The position numbers and the translations under genes were made by a program. Source: Branchiostoma floridae (taxonomy: Eukaryota > Chordata > Leptocardii > Amphioxiformes > Branchiostomatidae). From it: a DNA stretch of 64,000 nucleotides. Shown piece after piece: positions 2,553-56,239 of the stretch (position 1 is the stretch's first letter; each line of letters begins with the position of its first letter). The stretch is taken from the NCBI RefSeq assembly GCF_000003815.2, contig NC_049993.1:5919686-5983685 (forward strand), read 5' to 3'. The notes under the pieces are model-generated. The model was not told the origin of the DNA, made no database searches, and saw only the letters and a list, made by a program, of their open reading frames with translations.

Positions 2553-5500
2553 TTATAAACTATGTAGTGTCCGTCTGTTCGGTTGTCTCTTTCTAGCGGT
2601 GTACGATAGCCTCATCAGATATATGAGGATTAGGGTATAGATGATATAGGAGACGATACACTCCATGAACCTGAGAACAGACGCGAGGAAGGCCATCAGC
2701 AGCCGTTTTACGTTAGTGTACATCAGATCGAAGCCGACGTAGTGCAACACTAGCAACGCCCTTTTCACAGCGCCCCCTACAGTCACTACAAGTTTGATCA
2801 TCAGGATCCGGACATAACCGTATATGGAGATGATGTATTCCTTGAACTTGACTACATAGGGGATGAAGGCCAACAGCAGCTGTTTTAGGCTGGTGTACAG
2901 GAGGTCGAAGATTGCGTAGTGCAACGCTAACAACGCCCTGGTCAAAGCGCCTCCTATCGACTCTGGGAGCCTGGTCATCAGGATCCGGATGGAGCCATAA
3001 AAAGAGACCATACACTCCTGGATAACGGGCGGGATGAACCGCAGGAGCAGATGTTTGATATTATTGGCCACGGCCTGAAACCTGTCGTACTGGAAACTTG
3101 AAAATGCCCCATTCACAGCGTCTCCTGTCGACGCTGCTACATTGGCCATCACCATCCGGGCGGATCCCACCATGGACACCATGGAATCCTTGAACATCAT
3201 GACGTACGGGACGAGGGGCTGCAGCAGCTGTTTGATTTTATCGGCCACGAGCTGAAACTTGTCGGAGTGGCTCCAGAGAAGTTCCAATGCCCTGTTCACA
3301 GTGCCTCTTACCGACTCTGCTGCACTAGCCACCATCATCCGGGCGGATCCCACCATGGACACCATGGAGTCCTTGAACATCATGACGTAAGGGACGAGGG
3401 GCTGCAGCAGCTGTTTGATTTTATTGGCCACGAGCTGAAACTTGTCGGAGTGGATCCAGAGGAGTGCCAATGCCCTGTTCATAGCGCCTCCTGTCGACTC
3501 AGCTACACTGGTCATCAACATCCAGGTGCACCCGGAGATTGAGAGGATGGAATCCTTGACAACGGACGGGATGAAGGGGAGAATCAGCTGTTTGATCTTA
3601 TCGTAGTGGGGCTGGAGAACAGCAAACACGCTCTGCATGGCGCCTCCCAGCGATTCTGTCACGCTGGACATCAGGATCCGGAAGGAGGCGAAGAACTCCG
3701 TCATGACGAACATGATGAGGGCCATCAGCAGTTGATGAGGCCGCTCCAACTCCTGTACAGGACCGAGCTGCTGTGCCTTGACTGCGGACTGAGGGAGAGC
3801 TCGTAGCGGTACGTCCAGCGCGTCAAAGAACAGGTCTTCAACTTCCATGTCCTCAGCTAGCCACATAGGCGGGTTGGGGTTGTAGAATTCGTCGTACTCT
3901 ACCATCCAGGGAGGCAAACCCGGCACATCGATGTATACCGATCCCTCTTCGGAATGGCGTGAGTTGGTGCTAATTTCATTTAATTCAGCACGCTTGAGAA
4001 ACTCGTCTTCTTTTATCTTCAACAGGGGAAGCCCTGGGGCATCACAATATTCCTCATCTGTCTCCTCAGAGTGGCGTGAGTTGGCGTCAACTACATCTCT
4101 AGCAGCGCGCTTCAGAAACTCTTCTTCTTTCACCTCCCGCCAGGACGGCCCTGAAGCATCATCTTCATCTTTCTCCGCGGAATGGCGTGAGATGTCGCCA
4201 GCTTCAATTTTAATTTTAGCAGCGCGCACACGGCGCAGAAACTCTGCCGACTCTACGCGGTGCACGATGGTATCGGCTGCAGGTTTCTCTCTATGGAAGT
4301 CGCCCATACCAGTGATGTCGGAGAAGAGGCCTTCATCCCCGAAGATCGAATAAGTGCTTCCAATGGCGCCAAGGCCGAACTTACCGGGAGGACGGCGGTC
4401 AGGCTGGCGGGGCCGGGGCTGTGGGGCCGCGGGGCGGTAGGACTGGGCTACCGTGGGCCAGCTCCGGCTTTCCGTCGGGAAGGAACGACGGGAATAGGCT
4501 GTAACACATCAGTTCCGCTTGGTCAGACTTTGTAATACGCAATACTGTCTACGGTGTTGCACGTTGTGCGCTCTTAAGAAAACATTGACATTCAGGGGGG
4601 AAAATAAAAACCAATTTAGAACGACCAAAGTAATCCCGGGACCATTTCACTTAAAAGACTTTCAAGATTGAGATCACGGTATAACGGTGCAAAATGTGTA
4701 CAACAAGATTTCTCTCTGTAGATTAATCATTTGTAAAGCAACGCACTATCAAAAAATAGGGCAATTTCTTTCTATTGTTGTTCTAGAACGCACATGTATT
4801 CAAGAAAAGGCACGGATGACAAAACTCGCACAGTATACACTCATGTCACGTATAACAATACCAAGTATAGAAATGTATCCTTGAGTCTAGCTTTGCTACA
4901 GGTATATATCATCTTCTTCGCACACAAAAAAAGAAATTAAAAGGCATGGATTGCAAACTACACACAGTATCTTCACATGTATAACGTAATTCTAAGTCTA
5001 GAGATATATCTTTGAGTCAAGCTACAATTCTATGTCTTCCTCTTCGCACACAAAAAAAGGAAAGGCATGGATTACAAACTACGCACAGTACATACACGAT
5101 GTATAACAGTCTAACTTTACTACATGTATAAGTACTTGTAACTTACCTGATGAGGGTCCGTCATACTTGTCGACCCACTCCTCCAACACAATGACCTCGT
5201 ATTCACCGTCCTCGCCGTACAAAAACACATCGTTCCTAAAGTCGCGAAACGACAGTTTTGGCAGCATGATCGTCCTTGGTTCCCGCGGACGGTGTGTCTT
5301 CTTCTCGCTCTTCTTCTCTTCGCCCTCTGTGTCTTAAACATGTGGAGAAACGTCATGAATGTTCTGACAACTTCTCTCGTTGTAAGGAACAAATCCAAAC
5401 TGTAGTAATTTTATACTATGGACTCCGGAGTTGAACCAATCATCAGTTTGTTTTGCGACCGCGTGATCAGAAAATGGTCTGTATATTGAAGACGGAAATT

Positions 5501-5709
5501 GTCCTGATATGCTACCAAACTTGACACTAGTGATGCGGATTAAACAAAATTCATGTACAGATTTCAAACATATGATTATATCAGATATATATGGAATACC
5601 TGCAGTACTCACCTTCAGAGAAGAGGAGCCATAGCATTGTCGCCACGGCGGCGACGGATAAGACTGCCGTAGTTACCGGCTGGTTGAAGCCCGGGCCTCT
5701 TAACGGCAT
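2553..5709 (-). CDS. Three-exon membrane protein with charged and hydrophobic tandem repeats (novel)
   Basis: Exons: 5613-5709, 5147-5332 and 2553-4498, all with GT/AG borders and matching phase-1 junctions, giving 742 residues. Exon 1 encodes an N-terminal hydrophobic anchor (about residues 12-30, TTAVLSVAAVATMLWLLF). Exon 2 is acidic and begins with a Lys/Glu-rich stretch. Exon 3 opens with a Pro/Arg-rich linker. About residues 176-298 hold three charged repeats of 35-40 residues sharing EFLKRA, SRHSEE and DxPGLP motifs. About residues 350-713 hold six hydrophobic/amphipathic units of 55-62 residues with the pattern RxLM..V.ES.GGA...AL, D, IKQLLxPxxPxV. The tail is a hydrophobic stretch followed by basic residues. 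The pattern suggests repeated re-entrant or amphipathic helical hairpins on a membrane. I recognise no family and assign no function. The spliced model explains why the 584-codon frame in exon 3 stays open upstream of its first ATG (4307), back to the acceptor. Confidence 0.75.
4798..5110. repeat. Diverged tandem repeat in intron 2 of the repeat-protein gene
   Basis: Two clear copies, and a more diverged third, of a roughly 120-130 bp unit. Shared blocks are CTTCGCACACAAAAAAAG, AAAGGCATGGATT and GTATAACG. Confidence 0.6.
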
Positions 5710-6749
5710 TTTCTTTACTCTTTTACTCGCAACTTAATACCAAAAAGCACGCTCGCTTTCTTGGCTTGGTCGACAAATGTGTCAACCAAAATGTAACCAC
5801 AACGTCTGGTAAAATTCAGAACTTAGAGCACTTTTTCTCGCAGCAAGGCGCGAATCGTGTAAATCAAACACCACGACATCGGTTGCTCTAAAGTTTTGTG
5901 ACGTCATAGTCGCTTGAAAGAACGGAAACACTCTCATTCATAACCGCGCATGCGCTAACGTCATTACCATTCCTGTCCTCAATAAAGATGTACATGTCAT
6001 TATAAGACCCCTCACTCGGTCTGTCACGTATAACGGTCCTTCCTTCGTAAGACATAGAAGATCTGCTGAAATGGCTTTCCATGTGTTGAGATGTGGCTGT
6101 CACGTTATGCTATGTAGTTGTTCGAGAACCTCTTACATATTCGAATTCAATACATGTGCATTAAATACCGGGTAATACGCTCGTATGGCCCACTTTACTT
6201 GTTCTTTTACTTGTACTACACATAGTAGTTGCTGCTGCTATTTCAGAGCTGTGTGACGAACATGTTGCACATTGATATCTTTGCGCGTTGTTTATGGTTT
6301 CTGTTGCTTGGTGTACGTTTTTGTTTGGCAGTTTGAGAGAGCGATCAGGCAGTGTCATCTCAAGTGCTATTTCGGAAACATTTCATCGTCCCTTCATAAT
6401 GCTAATCTCACATTTCCAAACCGGGACCCGGCCAGGCTGTTTGTGAAAATGAACAATAGAAATGTATGTATTGCGTGAAAATATACAGAAATGATGCCTC
6501 TTTACGTGCATGTAGTTTGGTGTCTTTTGTATCATACTTTTTGTTCCCGAAAGTTGTCCGGCCGAGCCCCGGTTTGGAAATGTGGCGTAGGCCTAACTAG
6601 TTTGATTCTTAGTCGCCACTCTACACCAGCTCATTTAATCCCAAATCAGATAATGCCATTGATACTCAACACTTACTTACATAGAGTATCGATCTTTTGT
6701 GAAGCTTTTTGACCAATTTTCTGAACCCCACTGTTTGTCCCTAATCCAG
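5710..6749. promoter_or_regulatory. Upstream region of the minus-strand gene; no exon recognised
   Basis: This lies between the start codon of the minus gene (5709) and the first recognised phosphatase exon (6750). It must hold the minus gene's promoter and may hold phosphatase 5' exons that I could not identify. There is no clear TATA box. Confidence 0.35.
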
Positions 6750-9700
6750 GCATTGCCAGACGAGCTGATTTACAAGTGCAAAGTGGCCAGGCGGCCCGAG
6801 AACACGCCGAAAAACAGATACACAAACTCCATTCCGTGTAAGTACTGAGGATGCGAGAAGGCAATCTAACATAAAGTCGTTATTGACACTGACGCTTAGC
6901 GCATATAACGTTAGATTCGAGAATTGCATACCTTGAGATTGGTCGAAGGGCTTTTATACCCTGAAATACGCGTTCTCTTATTTTCTAAGCCAGCGCTTCA
7001 AACCCCTTATCTTCTGAAAAGAAGCACGATCAAATTCGCATCTAAAGAAAAATGTGTGATAGAGTCTAGGGAGCGAAGCAAGATAAAAGTATAAATATAC
7101 CAAATGTTCCGGGTTTATATTTTGCAGACGACTACTCTCGTGTTGAACTACAGCCTCTGCCAGGCAAACCTACAACTAACTCCGACTACATCAACGCCAG
7201 TTGGGTCAACGTACGTTCGGTTATTCACCTCTTCCTATAGCCTTCAGCACAGCATTTTCTCTATCAGAGCAAATATCTCTTATGTTCCTACAATGTACTG
7301 AATACTTAAATTCTATGCCCCTGTCAGACAGCTGGGAAATAATCTGCGAGCTGTAAGTGACATTTTCGGCACTAGCATGTCCAGCATTCTCTCTCTATCA
7401 TAGATCACCGCTCGACCCCTTCCAATGTGATATAGGCAGAGTTGGCCACACTGAATTAATTGTTAAGGATGACGTCGACACACTCTGGAGACCCAAAAAC
7501 TAATGTGCAAGGACAAAAATCTAGCAATACAATCCTGCTAAACCACAGGACTAAACATCCAGTCCATTCTTTCTCAGGCTTGGTTTGTCTTATGTTCAAC
7601 TCCAGTAAGACTAAGAGACAACCGTCGCCATTGCCATTCTTGTTTAAAGAGGGAACAAGGGCGCTGTGGTCCCGACCATGTGCCTAGATCCTCTGGTAAA
7701 CATTTTCTATTTTGAGAAAAGGTGAAAATGAATGCCGAAACGACTGCTAAAATGTGTCTGTCTTCTCCCCAGGGTTACTCCAAGTCGAAAGCTTTCATCG
7801 CCACGCAGGGCCCATCAGCGGAGACTGTGGACGACTTCTGGCGGATGATATGGGATTACGGACCGAAGTACATCGTCATGTTATCTGACCTGATAGACAA
7901 GTCCAAGGTTAAATATCATAATTCACTATTAAATATCATAAAGAGTGAGTAAACTAATATTGGACTGAGCTGCTTGTAGCTTTAACTTAAGTACATATCT
8001 GACGCTAGCATGCTGAAACTTCGCTGAAACAACGAATCATAATGACTTCCGGGATCCGTTGGAGATCGAACAATTTAATTTTTTTTCAAATATGCTAGAT
8101 TTTGAGATGATTAGACTTTATCTTGAGAAGTTTTGACAAAAATCTTAACATGCTTCGGAAGAATGTCAAGATACTTTGAAAGATGATTTAAAAAGATCTC
8201 AAGATGCTTGCAAAAGATCTCAAAAAGTTATGAATATGAAAAGATTTTTGACAATATCTCTAGATCTTTATAAAAGAAATATAAATCAAAAATAATCATT
8301 AAACATGGAAAAATTCTAAAATTCTGTCGATTCTAATACGATCATAAAGTATTTCATAAATTAGTGTACTTTATATTTACCAGTTCTTTATCTCATTTCC
8401 TCGCGTATTAAGAAAAGTTCCATTTTAAGAAAAAATCTTTTGGGTGGAAAAAAAAGGAGTAGATGTAGAAGGTTTAAGACTTTTTTCCAGACCGCATTGA
8501 ATGTAAGAAAAAGTGTTTTCACTCAACTCAAAGCTAAGATTGTCACAGGTTCCTTGTGCGCAATACTGGCCGGATAAGGAGGCATCGCTCCGGTCTGGTG
8601 ACCTGCTGGTGACCTTGAAGAAAAAGGACGTCATGGCGGACTACATCTTTCGTACATTCACTCTCCAAAAGGTAATAAACTGTCTTCTTTTCCTTTACTT
8701 TTTTTTCGCATAATCATAGTGATATCTTTTGTTGACATTTTTCCTTCCAAAATGACAAAGATTTCCAATATCGTGACTTAAAATATTTCGAGTTTTTCGT
8801 TTGTCTTGTTTCATACGGAAAATCTCTATGAAATCACAGACAGACCAAAAATTAAACCTCCCCCTGAATTAGTAGCCTCATCCATTGACCCCATGACCTG
8901 ACATGTCTGAACCTTCCTGTCACTCCCGCAAGTCTGACCTTTGCGGTGACACTAACATCTCACTCACTTCCTGCCACTCTACTAACAGTTTATTCAAATA
9001 ACCACCTACAGACACAAGAACATAATAAACGACCGAAAACCAAACCTTCAAACACAGAGGTGGCAATTTTCCTATTATACCTGGTAATTGTATTCTGTAG
9101 TGGGGTCTGTGTAGTGCAACGGCTAGAGTGTTGGAGTCGGAATCAGAAGGTCAGGAGTTCGATAGTCGTCATGCCCTACTCTTAAGACCTTGGAAGAGGC
9201 ACTTTACACGATATACCCACCAATAAAAAAAGGCCACCATGACGGTGGAGTGACGCCCAACGAGCCTCACAGCTAATCTGTCAAAAAGGGTGCCCAAAAC
9301 ACTTACGGAAATGGTGCGCCAGTGTGCCAAAATCTACACTATCACCACTAAGAGCCGTAATTTTTTTTCTTATTTTGTATTCTGTAAACTCTGTGTTCAG
9401 GCCGGAGACGACGCATCCCAGTACGAGATCACGCACATTCAGTACACGGGATGGCCGCAGCATCGCGCTGGCACGCCTCCCTACAGCACCTCCCTCCTCA
9501 ACATCATCAGGACCATCAAGCTGACTGACCCTGAGGAGATGGAGACCCCTATCGTCGTTCACTGCGGGTAAGTGAAAAGAACAGTACCGGTAACGGTACG
9601 GTACAGTTTATGCAAAAGCCCAGAACTACAACATGTGGAACATATTCACTTTGCGGGTATATCTACTCACTTTTCATACTTTAAAGAATTTGAACTAGGT

Positions 9701-36400: not shown

Positions 36401-38876
36401 TTAGTCGTGAGTGTGTGTACCACTGGGAGAGGATTACGTGTAAAGGAATTCAATATTGTGAGATCATGGAGATATTATTATATTGGAAGGAAAGTGGGTC
36501 GGTCGAGCTTGGTATTTTGTAATTGGAATATAATGGAGATGTTATTATATTGGAGGGAAGGTGGACCGGTCGAGCTTGGTATTTGTAATTGGAATATAAT
36601 GGAGATGTTATTATATTGGAGGGAAGGTGGGCCGGTCGAGCTTGGTATTTGTAATTGGAATATAATGGAGATGTTATTATATTGGAGGGAAGGTGGGCCG
36701 GTCGAGCTTGGTATTTGTAATTGGAATATAAACAGCATTCGTATCATTGCAAACGGGAAAACTTTGAATATAGAATGATGCGAATATAGATTTGATCAAG
36801 GAGGTTATATTCAAATTCTGAATATAACCTCCTTGATTTGATGAACCGCTGTTTTTTTTTAAAGTTGCTGTCATTTAAGTCAAGTTCTTTCTTTGCCCTG
36901 GACTTGTACCTTCCGACAAAGTATGATTTTTAAGCGTGAGACAACTGTTCCAAATTCAGTAACATCAGATCTAGAAACCATTGATACAGTTACCAAGGCC
37001 TAATAACTGTCATCTGCGGGCAGCCAATCAGCGTAGACCTTTTTGCAGACGATAATGGCTGTCTCCATGGAGATCAAACGACATTAGGGCAGAACAAGGC
37101 TGGTCGTTATTAGATAACGCCGTACTACTGGTGTTCCCGGGAATATAATTTGTCTGTGGATATAATCACATAGAAAGCCAGCCCTAGATTCACAATTATC
37201 CAGTTGTCTGGAAAGTTAGACAAAATAAGCATACGATAGAACAGTCGGGGATTGGCTATTTGTAAAAATAAAATAGAAAAAATGACCTTCAATTTGAGAA
37301 ATGACTTTCACAAGATATTCTTAGCTTAATACCTTAAGAATGATCAATGATCAAAAATGAAAAATTGATGTCAGGACTGATTTTCTTTTTTCTTAAAAGA
37401 CCTGCTTGTTTTTGACCATACCTTGCAGAATTATGACGTCATGATCATAGTAAAGGTTGAAATGAGAATGTTCATCTATAATTGATTGACGTGCCCTCTG
37501 ACCTGTGTCCCCTCAGGAGTTCCCAAGGAACTTCACCAGTTCGCGTCAGAGACGGTGTTCTACATTGAATGCCGGGAAGAGGGCGGGGTCATCACCTGGG
37601 CAACGACGCCGGAGTATCTTGGCGCCAAACACGGAACCGTGACGAACGTCTTCCGGATCGGTGAGGAGATAGAGGAGGACACTGGAGACGGCAAGAAGAA
37701 AAAGGTCCATCACTTCTTCTTGTCTGTCCTTTATTTCTTCTCCTTCATTTTGTGCGATACTGAGAACATTTTGCGGGCTATTGAACGACTACTCTGTCTC
37801 TCTCTCAAATCAACTCTCAAAAGTTTTAGGGGCAACCCACCTGTTTTGAGATGAATAAATAAATAAGACAGACAAGACTAGACTTTTCATCATCCTAGAC
37901 GTAATGTGGTTTATCTCTTTAATTCTTTAATTGACCTGTTGACTGTTGTTAGGGTGATATTTCCTTTTTTTATCTTAAAAGAACCCAAATCGTATCATTG
38001 TTTTACTTCTGGTCAACAATCCATTTCTAATCACTTCTTACTACTTCGATGAATGTTAGACATGCAGATAACAAAATGCGCCAAAAAGCAATTACCCAAG
38101 CAACTGGGTATGATTTTGGAAACGGTCAGACGTTTCAGATAACATCCGTTATCTTTCGTTAGTGACACTGTTGAAAGATAAGGAATGTTATCAGAAACGT
38201 CCGACCGTTTCCAAAACCATGACCAGTTGCTTAAGTAATTGCTTTTTGGCACTTTTTCCTTCTATTTATAATTTTTTATTGTCAACGTTTAGAGAGGCAT
38301 TATCTTTCGTTTATCAAGACTCAACTCACAGTCAGTTGTTTTCCATATGCACTTATGTTCATCTGTACCTATATCACTTCTTCATTAATCAAGTGGTAAT
38401 TTCTGGTAGATAGGGCTTGAGCGACACAGTTGGTAGATAGAGTTGACCTTGACTGACCTTCCCCCCCCCCCTCCCCCCACAGTGCGTGTACACCTGGGAC
38501 GGGGACAAGCTGGTCTCCACCTATCCAGACTGGGACGGCAAGGGGTTAAAGGTCACCATGTCCAGGGCACTCGAAGGGGATTCCACCAGCACGGTATTGA
38601 AGGATTTATCATTACCTAAACCATACTTACAATGTGGGTTTTGAAGTAAATTTTGCATTCATCGGGTTTGTCATTAACATTTGTCTATATCTCCCATTAT
38701 ATCATAGACTAATGACACACTTTACAATTACAATCTTTGTGTTTCCGACAATTAGAACTGATGGACCTCTGTATATTTGACTAATGTCATTTGACTTATG
38801 CCTATTGTCCTTGCTTTGAACATAGGTAATGTCGGCGGGTGACGTCACGTGTACCGTGGTTTACCTCAGATGTTAG
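33460..38876 (+). CDS. Fatty-acid-binding protein family gene A (intracellular lipid-binding protein)
   Basis: Cytosolic ten-stranded beta-barrel carrier of fatty acids or retinoids. Exons: 33,460-33,541, 37,517-37,704, 38,483-38,593, 38,826-38,876 (TAG); 432 nt, 143 residues. Four exons with three introns at these places are the family's hallmark. Start MPVAVAMFSGKWKYGSGDN matches the family FxGKW opening. Exon 3 has LVSTYPDWDGKG and MSRALEG, keeping the Arg that corresponds to Arg106. Exon 4 has AGDVTCTVVYLRC, where the usual Arg-x-Tyr fatty-acid anchor reads Val-Val-Tyr. So one of two carboxylate-binding Arg is lost, suggesting altered ligand choice. Intron 1 is large (about 4 kb) and filled with repeats. 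The last 36 bp around the stop codon are duplicated in tandem just downstream. Confidence 0.92.
33705..33850 (+). repeat. Repeat family 3, single copy
   Basis: Contains AGTGTCACTGACGAAAGATA, TATCTGAAACGGCCGACTG and ATCTTCATCGATGTGTCT. Related sequence recurs near 38,040-38,240 (inverted pair) and 56,533-56,690. Confidence 0.6.
33860..36440. other. Intron 1 of FABP gene A, no nested gene seen
   Basis: AT-rich intronic sequence with no convincing coding exon on either strand. Confidence 0.5.
36463..36729 (+). repeat. 65-bp tandem repeat, four copies
   Basis: Units contain TAATGGAGATGTTATTATAT, GGAGGGAAGGTGGGCCGGT and GAGCTTGGTATTTGTAATTG. The first copy is more diverged. Both strands stay open only because the unit is short and regular. 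Confidence 0.95.
36795..36837. repeat. Perfect 19-bp hairpin
   Basis: ATCAAGGAGGTTATATTCA and its exact complement are separated by 5 bp, in FABP A intron 1. Confidence 0.9.
38040..38240. repeat. Repeat family 3, inverted pair
   Basis: Two copies face each other: GCCAAAAAGCAATTAC at about 38,081 and GTAATTGCTTTTTGGC at about 38,235, with GGAAACGGTCAGACGTTTC and its diverged complement inside. It lies in intron 2 of FABP gene A. Confidence 0.8.
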
Positions 38877-39317
38877 TGACGTCACGTGTACCGTGGTTTA
38901 CCTCAGATGTTAGTGACGTCATCTGCTTGTCAGTGGAAACACGGAGAAAAGAACTTATTAACGTACAATATTCATGGTATCGGTAAATCTGCTGGTCAGT
39001 TTTCAGCTTTTGTATTAATTTATCAAGACCGAGTGAGAAAAAGGTACCATGCTTTTATCATAAGTTGTGGGTCTAGAGATTTATGATTATGTGATTAGAA
39101 GCTAACGTCTTGGTAAAAAAAAATGATGGACTTTATTTCCTACCGGGTTAAACGTTGGGTACAACTCACGGACACTGTGACGTAGCTTCGGTCTTCCTCA
39201 GGATTATTGACCAAATCACTTAGGTCACGTGGCCTATCGCCTCACGTGACACATGACAACAATTAATGGGTAAAAGGTGCTTGTAAGCCTGTATCGCCCC
39301 CCGTCTTGGCGGTATCA
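38877..39317. other. 3' flank of FABP gene A
   Basis: Holds the tandem copy of the last exon's end (about 38,875-38,915) and the presumed 3' UTR. No further gene seen. Confidence 0.4.
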
Positions 39318-46801: not shown

Positions 46802-49285
46802 TCACGATTTCCGGTAAATTCTTTTCAATGTGACGTCACGAAATTTCACTTCCTGTGGACGAAAATGAGAATATCTTAACGAGTACACCAAATAAGATTT
46901 ACCAAAGCAACATACAAAGATATGATTTCGGAGCTTGAAGCTTCAGTACAATAAAGAGCGTTGGCGACTTGAATTATCATTAACTTAGAGTCTTAATTAG
47001 TTAAACAGCTTTGTCTGCGCATCAACTGAACCAATAGAATCATACCTCAAAACGAAATAGAATGAATACGATAAGACACTTGACCATACTGACCGCCATG
47101 ACATTGTGGCCGTCCATCCAGCGCGTGATGGTCAGCGGCGTGCCGGTCCCGTCCCAGTCTTTGAACACAGACACCAGCTGATCATTGTTCCAGAAATACA
47201 CCACCTGCCAAGCAGAGGTAGAAACAAGGATTCAGAAAATTCCAGTCTGCCGGATTAGATTAGAAGCTGAGATCTAGCGAAAGAATCAGGATACTTTTAA
47301 GAGGAGTTAGCCCACCATGTACTAGAAAAGATCCTCTGGTTGAATATCTGACTGCTTTGGCAAATCGTACCTTCTGTTTCCGCAGCTAGCTCAAGTTCTG
47401 CATTTATTCATCCCCAATAACATCAAGACTTGTCTTTCAAAGTAGCAATTAACGTCAGCATTAAGAAGGTGAAATTTCAAAACTCAGATGAATTACAAAC
47501 ATCCCACCAACCTTTCTCTTCTTCCCATCTCCCGTGTCCTCGTAGAATTCGTTGCCGAGCTTGAAGTGGTTGGTGGTCGTCCTGCCATTGGCTGTTGTGG
47601 ACCACGTGATCCAATCGTCATTATGTTCCTTGACGTCGACCTTGGGCTCGAACCCTTTGGAACGAGTGCGCAAGCTTGGCGGGGTACCTGGACATAAGTT
47701 GCATACATCATAAAGCCATTATGACGCAATCTGTCCATCATGAAATATCATCTGCAGCTGGCAAAGAAAATCAGAAGAAGCAAGGGGCTTTTAGCGTTGA
47801 TAAAACTCATTGGTAGAAGTGGTGCATCTGTCATGTGATTTTGGCTAATGTCGTACTGTAGATACATGTTATAACGTTACTTCATCTTACCTTTATTGTT
47901 CCCACATCACTAACAAGTTACATGTCAAGATTAACAGATTAGGAGTTAATTATACGGTGATCCCCAGTTACGGATTAGCTTGTAAAAAAATAGTGGCTTT
48001 ATGAGAGAGACAGCTTATGCCTATAGCTCTATAAGCCTCGTGGGCTCGACTGGAAGATCCTACTTCATCCAGAGTCTTACCTCATAACGTTACTACATGA
48101 CGCAAAAATAGCTATCCCGGTGGACGCTCCCTTCTCAGAAACCATACTCTGGTGTATACTATTACTACTAAACGTAGGTATATGGTATATATACACATTT
48201 GCAAATAACTGCACGTAGTCCTGAACCGTCCTCTTATTTAGCTAGACAAGGGCAGACTATCGGTTCTCCATTTGGGAACACACTGGTGCTACGTGTGCGT
48301 AGTGTCATTGCATCCTAATCTTCAAGCAGATGTGTGGCGTGCCTTCGACTGTTTTCGTCTCTGATTGTTTTTCACTGGACCACAACTCGCCCAGCCAAAT
48401 TTCCCCTGCCTGTTCGCAACTATTAGTTATCAAATCTAATCATAAAGCTGACAACTTGTCCCTTGGTCTATATATAACCCTGCTAGCAGTCAGAAAAGTA
48501 AAATATAACCAGTACGCGATGAGGTTGAAACAAAGCTCAGCGGAGACTACCAACGCTCCCTTCCGTGTGTCTCCCAACAAATGTGAATGCAAGGTTCACA
48601 TGCCAAAAAAAATGTCGCTTGAAACAAGAAGCTTTTAATAAAAACTCCTTGCTTGTAACATACAACGTCACAAAACAAACAATATGGGCAAAAGACGTCC
48701 AAAACAGCCCTCGTACAATCTAACATAGCCCTCGACTAATGCAGTTTAATCATTAAACTACATAAAAATAAGTAGTCAGTTTGATCCGCCCCTTTTTAAC
48801 CCTCGATGAAAAAGATCACATGAGCTAACATTGTAATACAATGGGAAGATGGTCCGGTGGGGACTGTTCGTTATTGTCATAGAATTAGTTGTAGACAAAG
48901 TTTTGTCCTTCTCCCAACGCCCTTCCTCCAAAACCACAATGGACAAGAATAACCGGTTCTGTTGCGTATAAATCATGCTTGGTTACGATGGAATTTTATG
49001 AAACTTTTGCAGCATTTGAGACATAGTTAACGTTATATATAAAGCTTGCTACCCCTTGAGAGAGAACTCCATATAGTATTTCCTACAGTAAAGAGCGATA
49101 TATATATATATATATATAAACACCAGACTCAACAACACACCCGGCCTTGCTTTCTCAGAACGAAGGCGACAAAGCTGGGCGTGTTGTCGGGAGTCGGACT
49201 GACCCAAAGCCGCCATGAACGCTTCCAGGTTCTGGCTGTGTTGGTGTCTCCAGGTCCCGCTGAAGTCCACAGCAGACGCCGCCAT
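46802..49285 (-). CDS. Fatty-acid-binding protein family gene B
   Basis: Exons: 49,204-49,285 (ATG), 47,512-47,687, 47,094-47,204, 46,802-46,852 (TGA); 420 nt, 139 residues. Exon lengths of 82, 111 and 51 nt equal those of gene A. The start MAASAVDFSGTWRHQHSQN carries the family FxGxW opening. Exon 2 has DDWITWSTTANGRTTTNHF and EDTGDGKK. Exon 3 has LVSVFKDWDGTG and ITRWMDG, which keeps the Arg106 equivalent. Exon 4 has FRDVTLKRIYRKS and keeps the Arg-x-Tyr anchor (Arg-Ile-Tyr), while the usual preceding Cys is Leu. Of the three copies it looks most able to bind a fatty-acid carboxylate. Donors of exons 1 to 3 are non-consensus at +3 to +5 (GTCAGT, GTTGGT) but usable. Confidence 0.92.
49095..49120. 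repeat. (TA)n microsatellite
   Basis: A short run of TA dinucleotides just downstream of exon 1 of FABP gene B, inside its first intron. Confidence 0.85.
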
Positions 49286-49564: not shown

Positions 49565-49834
49565 ATTGAAGTTTTTCAACTGTAGTACAACACAAATTAT
49601 TCTCACCTCGAATTTTCAGTCGCTCTTCTCATCCGACACAATCAGTCGACACTCAACAGAGACGGGGGCCGATATCGTCTGCCAGGCATTTATGATTCGT
49701 TACTCGAATCACGTGTCTCTAAGTCACGTGATCAGAGTAACTGAATCGTCACTCCTGAAGAAGGTCGACGGAAGAGCGACTGAAAATTCGAGGTGAGAAT
49801 AATTTGTGTTGTACTACAGTTGAAAAACTTCAAT
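49565..49834. mobile_element. MITE with about 65-bp perfect inverted repeats
   Basis: The left end ATTGAAGTTTTTCAACTGTA continues through CACAAATTATTCTCACCTCG and AATTTTCAGTCGCTCTTC. The right end is its complement with almost no mismatches, indicating a young insertion. It lies upstream of FABP gene B. Confidence 0.92.
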
Positions 49835-50570
49835 AGTCTTCAATTCATCAATAGTGTGGAATCGTCGGCTAGATTGTATTCCAGACGTGGATACACATGT
49901 GATCTGTCTGCCTTTAACTTCAAGTACACTCCTCCATTGTTGTTCTTGTTGTGCATTTATCTAACATTCACCTTGAATTGACCTAACGGCCACTTTTTAT
50001 GGAGGTCAAGGGGTCATGTTCAAAGTACGACGTGCTCAGAATGCGATGATCAACCACCAGATGCCATATCTCGGCGTCCCCCTCTATGTCAGTGATGGAA
50101 TACTGCAGTGTAGTAGCCCCAACCCGAAGTTACACACAGTCACGAACATCGCTAGTTGGACCAAATCCAGAAGATTTGGCAACAAACATACGAGATCGAC
50201 ATGGGCAAAAGTGACAAGGACACACTTGAAATCGTAAACCCACCATACAAGCACAGCGTCAAACAGCAGCGGGAAAAATACAGTTCACAAAACCTCCATC
50301 ACTCATACACATTGAAACGGTTTATTTTGTCATTATAAATTCTCTACAGTTTGATCTAAGTTATACATGTTAAGGTATTTGGAATAACATGTACGTCGAA
50401 ATATTATTTTATTTACATGAATCGTTCAGCATAACGTTACACGATATTCACAACATCAAAATCCATTTATAACACTTTGATATTTGATATATGTAATGTT
50501 TTACATGTGTGCCAAAATGTATCATGTATGTGCAGATAAATACAAGCTTATCGCATCACGACAAAACAGT

Positions 50571-50777
50571 TACTGTAAATGCATTTAAGTTCGCGGGGTT
50601 TTTGATTTCGCGGTAGCGTGAAAATGGACTTTTCGCGGTGGTTTTAATTTCGCGGTAGCACCATGCAGTCTCTTACTGCTAAGGAAAATGTTCGCGTAGG
50701 TTTTAAATTCGCGGTGAAGCGGCCGCCGCGAAAACCGCGAACATTAATCCACCGCGAACATTTCTGCATTTACAGTA
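50571..50777. mobile_element. MITE family 4 copy A (TACTGTAAATGCA ends)
   Basis: Begins TACTGTAAATGCATTTAAG and ends with TGCATTTACAGTA. The interior is rich in TTCGCGGT and its complement. A second copy lies at 54,843. Confidence 0.9.
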
Positions 50778-51247
50778 TGTGCCTGTAGGTATGATGAAAT
50801 ATTTCACTGAATTACTATACACGATTCTGTCTTGCAATGTTCCATCATATTAAACACTTTTGGCACTCAGATAACGCTAGTTCACCTTTATTCGCGGGGT
50901 AACCTATATTCGTTATATTCAAAACAGGGTGCTTAGGGGCATCAATTCGACAGACGGTGGTTTCAAATTGCCGTATTTTCAAAATATTAATGCAGTCTGA
51001 AACTACCATACGTCGACATCTCAAAATACACTACCGTTTTTTAAGAACAATGGATACAGGTTTCCCTTGGATAAAGGTGAACTATCATTAGATCTTTCAT
51101 TTCCTATGTACTTAATTAGGTAAGCCCAGTAATAACGATGTCCGCAGCATGTCTATCATAAAAAGACTTATCCAACATTTGCGATTTCCGTCTTGTCTGT
51201 ATGAACATCTTAACCATGTGAAGTTAACAGCTTTATGATCGGTGTAA

Positions 51248-51248
<1 letters not shown>

Positions 51249-51325
<77 letters not shown>
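51249..51325. repeat. (TA)n microsatellite
   Basis: About 38 uninterrupted TA dinucleotides. Confidence 0.97.
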
Positions 51326-51328
<3 letters not shown>

Positions 51329-51624
51329 ATATGCCAACGTAGCTGGTCACATCGTGCTTAAACTTTTAGTTAAAGTTGGAATGATAGAAACGACAAATTT
51401 ATGATCTCATATCAAGTAGCACAGCTCAAAAAAGAAATGCCTACGTTAGCTCAAAGTTTGTCTTCTATCTAACACCCTGCATTCGATTTTCCCGCCAGTT
51501 TCGAGCGTTTCCATCCTTCTGCGTCCTTGTTTGACATGAACGCTCAGCTGTTGACTGTTGAAAGGCCAGGCCCAGACAGTCACTATATGTGATCTTTGAA
51601 CATGACCCTTGACCCTGTTTGACG

Positions 51625-54169: not shown

Positions 54170-54624
54170 TTAGAAGTCTCACAAAAACTCAGCATGAATA
54201 GCTTCTGCATGAAATTTACGTCTTTGTGAAAACAAGGACAACGTCCTTGGTGAAAAATAGTAGGATTTCAATTTGGAATGGAGTTCAGTTTTAGTGATAG
54301 GTTTCCTTTTCTACTTTCTCTATTTCTTTCTCCTTGCTTTATCTACTGATTTGCTGTTTCCTCACCGTGAGCTCACCCGGGCTACAAAAAAAGTTAATCA
54401 AACGGCAGAGCACAAAAAGCCATCGGAAAACATTACAACGCTTTCACCTGAGTTCACCTGCACAACCACGTGACCTTCACCATGGAAACCGCTGAGGATG
54501 GAATCGATGCCACCGACACGAACTGCTTTCCGAGAAACCAGCGATCGGGCTGGGCTCGAGACCCAAAACAAATCATTCAATACTAGTATTATGAATATAC
54601 TGTGCCTCTGAGTTTACAGCTTTT

Positions 54625-54803
54625 GCCTAGCCTCCATAGCAGGCTTTCTGGAGCCTTTTTATCGGCTCATAATACACTTTTGCTGGCCATGTCTTTTTGT
54701 ACTGGGTCGATTGTACTACGTTCAGTACAAAAAGAAATGGCCAGCAAAAGTGTATTATGGGAAAAAAATGAAAGGCACAAAGAACCTGCCATGGAGGTTA
54801 GCT
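54625..54803. mobile_element. Foldback MITE, family 1 copy B
   Basis: Ends GCCTCCATAGCAGGC and, inverted, GCCATGGAGGTTAGC. The centre has AGTACAAAAAGAAATGGCC, as in the copy at 474. Confidence 0.8.
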
Positions 54804-54842
54804 TTTGTCCCTTTCCAGTATAGATTACTGCCTCTCAGCAGA

Positions 54843-55052
54843 TACTATAAATGCAGAGATGTTCGCGGTGGATTAATGTTCGCGGTTTTCGCGGTGACCA
54901 CTTAACCGCGAACTTAAAACCACCGCGAACATTTTTCCATTATGTATTAGACTGCAGTCCATGGTGTTACCGCAAACTTAAATCCACCGCGAAAAGTCAT
55001 TTTCCCGCTACCGCGAAATTAAATCCCCGCGAAATTAAATGCATTTACAGTA
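54843..55052. mobile_element. MITE family 4 copy B (TACTGTAAATGCA ends)
   Basis: The right end TGCATTTACAGTA is intact; the left end is TACTATAAATGCA. Same TTCGCGG-rich interior as the copy at 50,571. Confidence 0.88.
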
Positions 55053-56239
55053 ACACCCAAGCCTCCCGCTTAGCAATGAATTATGGCTGGGTTATTTTAG
55101 TGCCCTTTCACGTCGTTGTGTTTGTACACCAGCCGGGCTAGCTGTTGTGTTAACTGTGCGCCAGGGAGTCGTGTGTTGTTGTTTTTTTTTTCAGACAAAC
55201 TCTGGCTCTGCAAAGTGCTTTCGATATCCTACTAGGCCACCTCGGTCGTCACTATGGAGAATCTAAGTCCGTAAATGCAAGACCATAAAATGGCACAGTT
55301 CACGACATTGACTTTTGTGTACTGTTTTTTGGTAGTTGTATAAGTTCAAGTCGTTCACCTGTCGTTTTGTTGCCAGTTCTGGTGCCTTTTTCATGGTGCG
55401 TTTTGTAATTTTCTTGTGTTTACCCTTGATTTGTGCTCTCGAATATGAGCCAAGCTAATCTGCTTTTTTAGTGTTTCCTCGGAATCCATAGAGAAATTTG
55501 TGCGTATGTGATGTGACTAATTATAACATTAATAACACATTGTCATACATATATAAATACTTTTCGAACTGTTTCTCACAAAACAAGAAGTTAAAAATGC
55601 CCCCGTATATTTATACAGGACCATGCGAAAACGGATCGGGAAGAAAAAGGTTATTAGAACATTTCCTTTTGTAACTATTTGGTGTACCTTTCTGTAGCAT
55701 ATTTTCGTTTGAAATATTAATTCTTTAAGCTTTAAGTCCCTTGAGCTGTTCATGACAAGAGCACGAACTTTGTCCTAATCTAGCTCATACAGTTTTATGT
55801 AAATAGCATTCGCATTTCGCAACCCTTTTGAACACTAGGTAATGGATAACTTGACATTTTAATGGCCCAACTTGAATGTCACATCTGGTGCACACCGTTC
55901 GGGTTTTCGAACGCTATTCAACATAATCCAGCAAACACAAAGACACACAGATACAATCTTACCAATAAAATACGATGCTTTCGGGGAAACATTACTCTTC
56001 TAAAAAAAAACTAAATCGCTGTAAAAACACGAAATGAAATTTCTACATGTTGGGAAGAGGAAGAAGTTGCACACAGTTGGTAGACATTGCAGCCCATTAA
56101 TTAGGACGGACGCCAGGCACACATTAAGAACGAAGACCCAACAAATCCTGCAGTCAAAACTTAGAATGCCTTACAATACGCTCTTGACTTGTTGTAAGGT
56201 AAACACTCAAAACATGTTAAGACCTCCCGCCTCCTCCAA
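55053..56239. other. No gene seen
   Basis: AT-rich sequence without a supported exon, up to the assembly gap. Confidence 0.4.

Follow-up and report, generated by a model that had tools for sequence, protein, structure and literature searches.

The window analysed here, a stretch of 64,000 nucleotides from the genome of Branchiostoma floridae (C15:5919686-5983685), carries on its minus strand a three-exon gene, hereafter W, with an open frame of 742 residues. Three paralogues (A, B and C) are located on contig C397, and an FFAT-type sequence (FFAT, two phenylalanines in an acidic tract) is present in all four copies. The C-terminal repeats of W, A and B have a common amphipathic period of 11 residues per three helical turns (11/3). 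We tentatively propose, while granting that it may well be wrong, that W is an anchored VAP-binding tether with a C-terminal array lying on or in a lipid surface. This proposal is new and specific; both the FFAT motif and the 11/3 period were absent from the first-pass annotation of this DNA.

Provided that the gene is transcribed, the N-terminal helix (residues 12-30) would anchor the protein in a membrane, and the acidic linker, which is disorder-like in composition, would be on the cytosolic side, where VAP on the endoplasmic reticulum (ER) could engage, through its MSP domain, two FFAT-type motifs, one good and one weak. The array of seven basic, strongly amphipathic units, ending in a very hydrophobic helix, would rest on a lipid surface or be shallowly embedded in it; this surface may be that of a lipid droplet or of another membrane. 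The protein would thereby join all three, the anchor, the ER and the lipid surface, and W would act like MIGA2 or other FFAT tethers.

The acidic linker and its FFAT-type motif

FFAT peptides are the means by which proteins attach to VAP at the ER. We used a strict pattern, xFF[DE][AC]x[DE] with F or Y at position 2, preceded by a six-residue flank with a charge of at least 4. When the linker was shuffled 20,000 times, core and flank arose together once; 5,000 shuffles of the whole protein gave none, and a loose published-style pattern arose in 43 of the 20,000 linker shuffles. Among all open frames of at least 60 residues in the window (27,995 residues, W included), the motif of W is the only strict FFAT with a flank charge of at least 2.5. 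The strict core occurs once in W (LFFDALD, flank charge 4) and twice in each of A, B and C (PFFDALD), where the flank charge is 3 to 4.5, one of the two in C having 3. In the paralogues the cores lie in a duplicated module; W has one module and A has two, and B and C have two intact modules and a third, broken one. A possible partner is also encoded in the genome: three exons matched the MSP domain above the cut-off, of which one has an internal stop and one is clearly VAP-like by eye. The acidic region is more than charged filler, since it holds the FFAT-type motif, which the first-pass annotation lacked.

The linker overlaps three charged repeats, with EFLRR at residue 180, EFLKRA at 221 and 260, and SRHS at 198, 235 and 274. 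Their ungapped autocorrelation is borderline at best, with 0.09 at the strongest lag (39) and a maximum of 0.11 among 500 shuffles. Together with the C-terminal units they bear out the earlier description of a protein with two kinds of repeats.

Several observations on the linker weigh against VAP binding. At position 1 the core has L or P in place of E, a deviation that is tolerated by published rules as set out in the accessible part of PMC3261905; the published descriptions, as far as they were available, give the largest weight to the acidic flank. The core is near-identical at the DNA level among the copies, with two variable synonymous positions, and its conservation is therefore weak proof of selection. 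Furthermore, the FFAT motif was sought after inspection of the sequence, and the shuffle figure is that of one out of several recognisable motifs. One stretch of the linker passes the octanol-scale hydrophobicity scan in A (1.3) and in B (2.3), and none does in W. Finally, an N-glycosylation sequon, NIS, is present in the linker of A, B and C, with two more sequons in B and none in W. Such a sequon would fit a luminal linker beyond the reach of VAP, and its presence in all three paralogues is the main hint against a cytosolic one.

The same sequon is consistent with W being a secreted or luminal lipid carrier in the style of apolipoproteins, in which residues 1-31 would be a signal peptide and the array would coat lipid particles of the secretory pathway. 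The N-terminal hydrophobic stretch is short, as expected for a signal peptide, and 11/3 helices are also found in apolipoproteins, according to the part of PMC5889406 available to us. However, W itself is without a sequon, the hydrophobic stretch is followed by LLFSEDTEGEE with no clear cleavage site by inspection, and an FFAT-type motif would be useless in the lumen. We consider this alternative quite improbable.

Helical periodicity of the repeat block

The periodicity of the C-terminal block was analysed in W, A and B, copy C being left out on account of its N gap. In 18-residue windows the hydrophobic moment peaked at 97.5 degrees in all three copies (0.323-0.329), compared with 0.196-0.208 (standard deviation 0.015-0.018) in 40 shuffles per copy. 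The period was also coherent over 54 residues, with peaks at 97.5 (W), 98.0 (A) and 97.5 (B) degrees and values of 0.262-0.276 that none of the 1,000 shuffles made of each copy attained at any angle from 80 to 120 degrees (mean of the maxima 0.147-0.153, largest 0.198-0.216). Across windows of 36 and 54 residues the peaks fell at 97.5-98.5 degrees, with 0 of 1,000 shuffles in each of the six tests, and the single units of W peaked at 94 to 100 degrees. An 11/3 helix corresponds to 98.2 degrees; at the heptad angle of 102.9 degrees the 54-residue windows gave 0.149-0.171. As described in the accessible part of PMC5889406, 11-mer repeats form 3-11 helices that bind lipid droplets, and are found in perilipins, synuclein and apolipoproteins. 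The net charge of the block is +18 to +23 in the three copies.

The octanol scan recovered the N-terminal anchor (residues 12-30) of the first-pass annotation in both W and B. The more general theme of that annotation, an association with membranes or lipid droplets, is also supported. The form of this association is less clear. The block had been suggested to consist of membrane-embedded helical hairpins, and on this alternative W would be an integral membrane protein with repeated spanning or re-entrant hairpins that shape or fill one membrane, the linker being a spacer and its FFAT-like sequence a product of chance. In W the scan accepts ten stretches. Nine of these lie in the block (1.5 to 11.6), the strongest being residues 351-369 (8.2) and 709-727 (11.6). 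In A and B ten block stretches pass in each, several of them at 8-11; Pro and Gly recur in most units, and the hydrophobic fraction of the block is 0.53. Real membrane-spanning helices in the block are thus possible, judging from these predictions. On the other hand, an 11/3 stripe coherent over 54 residues in three copies is not needed by spanning hairpins, of the ten stretches accepted in W four have scores below 3, and a strict FFAT arose in only one of the 20,000 linker shuffles. Of the earlier claim we therefore retain that some stretches could span a membrane. Since the stripe is coherent over 54 residues and several stretches are marginal, helices that lie on the surface or shallowly in it would suit the block at least as well as hairpins, and we regard a hairpin protein as somewhat unlikely.

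A surface-lying array has difficulties of its own. The seven units share ancestry, and their common period does not amount to seven independent observations. The block is more hydrophobic than the described perilipin helices and has 13 prolines in residues 347-742. An AlphaFold2 single-sequence model of the block was all helical, with a mean predicted local distance difference test score of 45.4 and a predicted template modelling score of 0.24, and gives no evidence of a fold.

Gene structure and paralogues

The three-exon model of the first-pass annotation, with its junctions at 5613/5332 and 5147/4498, proved to have the right coordinates, as judged by its open frame and by the layout of the paralogues. 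Two out of 12 GT/AG combinations near these junctions remain open as far as the stop at 2553, namely the 742-residue model and an alternative of 740 residues with an acceptor 6 nt further on. All the repeats described at first pass do lie in one long exon, exon 3 (Table 1).

Table 1. Positions of the features of gene W in the window, and of its paralogues on contig C397
Feature	Position	Strand	Remarks
Exon 1	5613..5709	-	residues 1-32 and one base; start codon at 5709; GT/AG check and paralogues
Exon 2	5147..5332	-	most conserved part together with exon 1; found four times in the genome
Exon 3	2553..4498	-	holds both repeat blocks and the stop codon
N-terminal hydrophobic anchor	5620..5676	-	residues 12-30; octanol scan 8.1 (W), 8.9 (B)
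Three charged repeats (EFLRR/EFLKRA ... SRHS)	3912..4250	-	residues 178-290
Acidic linker	3744..4211	-	residues 191-346; net charge -23
Weaker FFAT-like motif, SEETDE/EYCDAPG	4032..4070	-	residues 238-250; SEETDE/VYWDSPG in paralogues
FFAT-type motif, DMEVED/LFFDALD	3813..3851	-	residues 311-323; strict core at residue 317
U0 (partial)	3600..3743	-	residues 347-394
U1	3423..3599	-	residues 395-453
U2	3240..3422	-	residues 454-514; type 2 head and type 1 tail, a hybrid as from unequal crossing-over
U3	3063..3239	-	residues 515-573; complete type 2 unit by unit tree and head/tail comparison
U4	2892..3062	-	residues 574-630
U5	2715..2891	-	residues 631-689
U6 (partial)	2583..2714	-	residues 690-733
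Last, most hydrophobic stretch	2601..2657	-	residues 709-727; octanol scan 11.6
Possible poly(A) signal ATTAAA	2366..2371	-	from sequence only
GCGCATGCGC	5946..5955	.	upstream of start codon, near -246; kept in B and C
TGACGTCA	5899..5906	.	upstream of start codon, near -197; kept in B and C
Copy A	C397 exon 2 48759-48953, exon 3 49622-51597		exon 1 inside N gap
Copy B	C397 exon 1 64014-64110, exon 2 64574-64768, exon 3 65420-67467		
Copy C	C397 exon 1 106801-106705, exon 2 106228-106034, exon 3 from 105267	reverse	

Protein searches of the 513-Mb genome (431 contigs), using the repeat block, exon 2 and the first half of exon 3 as queries, revealed W and three further copies, all on the 108,107 bases of C397; these copy numbers are lower bounds. 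With exon 2 as query, all four candidates scored were W, A, B and C. Wherever the paralogues could be read, the splice sites and phases were those of W. Exon 1 is readable in two out of three (B and C, 90.6% amino acid identity to W), and exon 2 (85%) and exon 3 in all three. In W, A and B the open frame of exon 3 extends for about 650-680 codons; in copy C this exon has an N gap within the repeats, beyond which the C-terminus is open. The frame of W may therefore be said to have comparative support, and on these sequence comparisons W and its paralogues are a real gene family without a name, of which four copies were found.

Stretches of W and its paralogues align at about 74-78% also in introns and in upstream and downstream DNA, so that whole gene blocks must have been copied. 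We rejected the possibility that A, B and C are alleles of W, their synonymous divergence (dS) from it being about 0.3. Nor is C397 shown to be a duplicate haplotype, since no second full-length copy of C397:85000-87000 was among the best 40 of 1,123 candidates scored in the genome.

Two antisense open frames are present on the plus strand, one across the repeats (window 3102-3542, 146 codons, with His-Gly-rich repeats) and one across the linker (3886-4353, 155 codons); they are probably a by-product of codon use. In exon 2, residues 72-80 (window 5190-5216, minus strand) read GEDGEYEVI, with EYETI in the paralogues. We take this to resemble an LC3-interacting stretch (YxxI after acids), a kind of motif that often arises by chance.

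Evolution of the repeat units

The hydrophobic units of about 60 residues reported at first pass are real, although they number seven and not six: five are complete (U1-U5, 57-61 residues) and two are partial (U0, 48 residues, and U6, 44 residues). The ungapped autocorrelation of the block is 0.24 at lag 61 and 0.12 at lag 59, the largest of 500 shuffles being -0.20. Two adjacent units had been noted as almost identical at the DNA level, and U2 and U3 are indeed near-identical over about 120 nt. Here 30-nt windows with starts between 3150 and 3240 agree in 28-30 positions with the copy that follows 183 nt later. The agreement falls to 25 of 30 at 3135 and 3285 and to 6-12 of 30 at 3075 and below. 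A repeat with a 183-nt period was also detected by Tandem Repeats Finder, at 3103-3523.

When 21 units of W, A and B are compared in a DNA tree, those at positions 0, 1, 5 and 6 cluster by position across the copies, and U4 of W joins the fourth unit of each of the other two; in the protein tree the branch of unit 6 falls inside unit 5. Type 2 units are present twice in W and once each in A and B, and the unit type of A and B at position 4 is absent from W. The tail of U2 is of type 1, with 62 of 66 nt like the tail of U1 compared with 47 of 66 like the type 2 tail of A, whereas that of U3 is of type 2 (54 of 60 nt like A compared with 47 of 60 like U1). The heads of U2 and U3 match the type 2 heads of the paralogues at 86-92 of 93 nt and each other at 89 of 93. 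A hybrid such as U2 is a mark of unequal crossing-over, by which, as it seems, either W gained a unit or A and B lost one. Because the heads of U2 and U3 resemble those of the paralogues as closely as they resemble each other, the case for a W-specific duplication of U3 is weakened, and a gain in W is not distinguishable from a loss in A and B. The block was earlier said to be still expanding or being homogenised. A change by unit duplication is supported; block-wide homogenisation is not, since most units group by position across paralogues. Signs of gene conversion between W and the other copies were marginal (p 0.007, 0.014 and 0.034, six pairs tested); those among A, B and C were stronger (p 0 to 0.003, 5,000 permutations), the runs sitting where W is very different.

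One may speculate that the four genes form a lineage-restricted family of ER tethers, in which FFAT modules would set the avidity for VAP, the 11/3 units would set the grip on lipid, and copy number would tune tether strength, both repeat ends varying in number by unequal crossing-over. We think this extension unlikely, and 'lineage-restricted' is a candidate label, relatives having been sought in the window's own genome.

Selection

The ratio of nonsynonymous to synonymous divergence (dN/dS) of A, B and C from W, computed for copy C up to its N gap, is 0.23-0.30 in exons 1 and 2 and 0.39-0.48 at the head of exon 3, and climbs through the linker (0.53-0.67) and U0-U2 (0.48-0.70) to 1.29-1.40 in U5-U6. 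For W and B, the difference between exons 1 and 2 and U5-U6 gave p 0.0024 in a Fisher test on rounded counts. Positive selection on U5-U6 was considered and rejected: with site counts that were rounded and not computed, the ratio does not differ from 1 (p about 0.4). That the ratio of these last two units cannot be told from a neutral one counts against the proposed tether.

The gradient, together with the varying numbers of modules, would also be expected of a lineage-restricted protein that evolves fast, that has little defined function outside the 94 conserved residues at its N-terminus, and whose repeat blocks drift. Yet W, A and B have kept the amphipathic period, the charge and the FFAT core despite differences at about a third of the residues, and exon 3 has stayed open in all three. 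Such a protein seems improbable.

With respect to the copies on C397, dS is lower in the repeat block (window 2553-3743, 0.16-0.19) than in exons 1 and 2 and the linker (0.34-0.52), the head of exon 3 being intermediate (0.22-0.25).

Promoter region and neighbouring elements

About 400 bases upstream of W are partly alignable among W, B and C. They include GCGCATGCGC, which we take to be an NRF1-type core and which occurs once in the window (0.01 expected). NRF1 is linked with mitochondrial and housekeeping genes, which is a weak hint only. The second conserved site, TGACGTCA, presumably of the cAMP response element (CRE) type, was found 10 times in the window, nine of them besides the promoter site, with 1.14 expected; three of these lie at a 37-base spacing at 38840-38921.

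Head to head with W, the plus strand at 6748-7910 has exons that resemble a protein tyrosine phosphatase domain by eye. Inverted repeats of the miniature inverted-repeat transposable element type are located at 476-628 and 6409-6584 (arms of 46 and 25 nt, spacers of 61 and 126 nt), and in all three paralogues DNA resembling the latter precedes exon 2, lying within the first intron in B and C. On C397, a 636-residue open frame between A and B (54266-56176, minus strand) encodes an AIG1/GIMAP GTPase domain (Pfam, E 7.5e-58) and a Hint module (E 2.8e-23). At C397:85091-85273 lies an element of some 180 bases, of a young short interspersed nuclear element type, with 39 further places at 94-98% identity among the best 40 of 1,123 candidates.

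Relation to known families and systems

That the protein belongs to no recognisable family was borne out by all searches. The best Pfam match of the whole protein was DUF7724 (E 0.1, 13.1 bits, below the cut-off of 27), and NCBIfam and PDB sequence searches gave no match at E<=10. The seven single units gave only a weak Pfam match to ABC2_membrane_2 in one unit (E 0.33), and exon 3 of three copies gave Rz1 in one (E 0.055) and DUF7724 in one (E 0.083). A profile of exon 3 had no PDB match at E<=1. The unit profile matched dnHEM1 (E 0.0005) and dTor_6x35L (E 0.0035) in PDB through summed weak pieces, none of which passes singly; from their names we take both to be designed repeat proteins. A literature search of partial coverage returned no publication recognisable as dealing with this gene family. 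Homology to MIGA was not detected with Pfam, whether the query was the whole protein, exon 3 from three copies or the seven units, nor was homology to the perilipin PAT domain or 4-helix bundle in Pfam or in the PDB sequence search. Pfam presumably holds models of both MIGA and perilipins.

If our proposal is correct, W would be a new contact-site tether without a family name, made by a simple recipe of anchor, FFAT motif and amphipathic repeats, and the four paralogues, differing in motif and unit make-up, would be a natural series on avidity and ER contact. More generally, short motifs and periodicity can suggest a testable function for a gene that matches no family.

Among known systems, MIGA2 (mitoguardin 2) has an N-terminal membrane anchor, an FFAT motif and a lipid-surface-binding C-terminus in the same order as proposed for W. 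It differs, as described in the available part of PMC9239997, in having a coiled coil, an FFAT that depends on phosphorylation and a folded, cavity-containing lipid-transfer domain, whereas W has repeats and an acidic FFAT-type motif and is without a MIGA match. The perilipins, above all Plin4 with its 11-mer/33-mer repeats, resemble W in their long 11/3 amphipathic array, net basic charge and tandem repeats (PMC5889406, in part). W differs from them by its units of 57-61 residues, its greater hydrophobicity, the prolines within units, the N-terminal anchor and the lack of a Pfam perilipin match. A further likeness is to the Coxiella effector CbEPF1, which combines FFAT motifs with an amphipathic helix and a hydrophobic region reaching lipid droplets (PMC11624262, in part). 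CbEPF1 is a bacterial effector, and the likeness, drawn from its description and not from its sequence, is one of plan.

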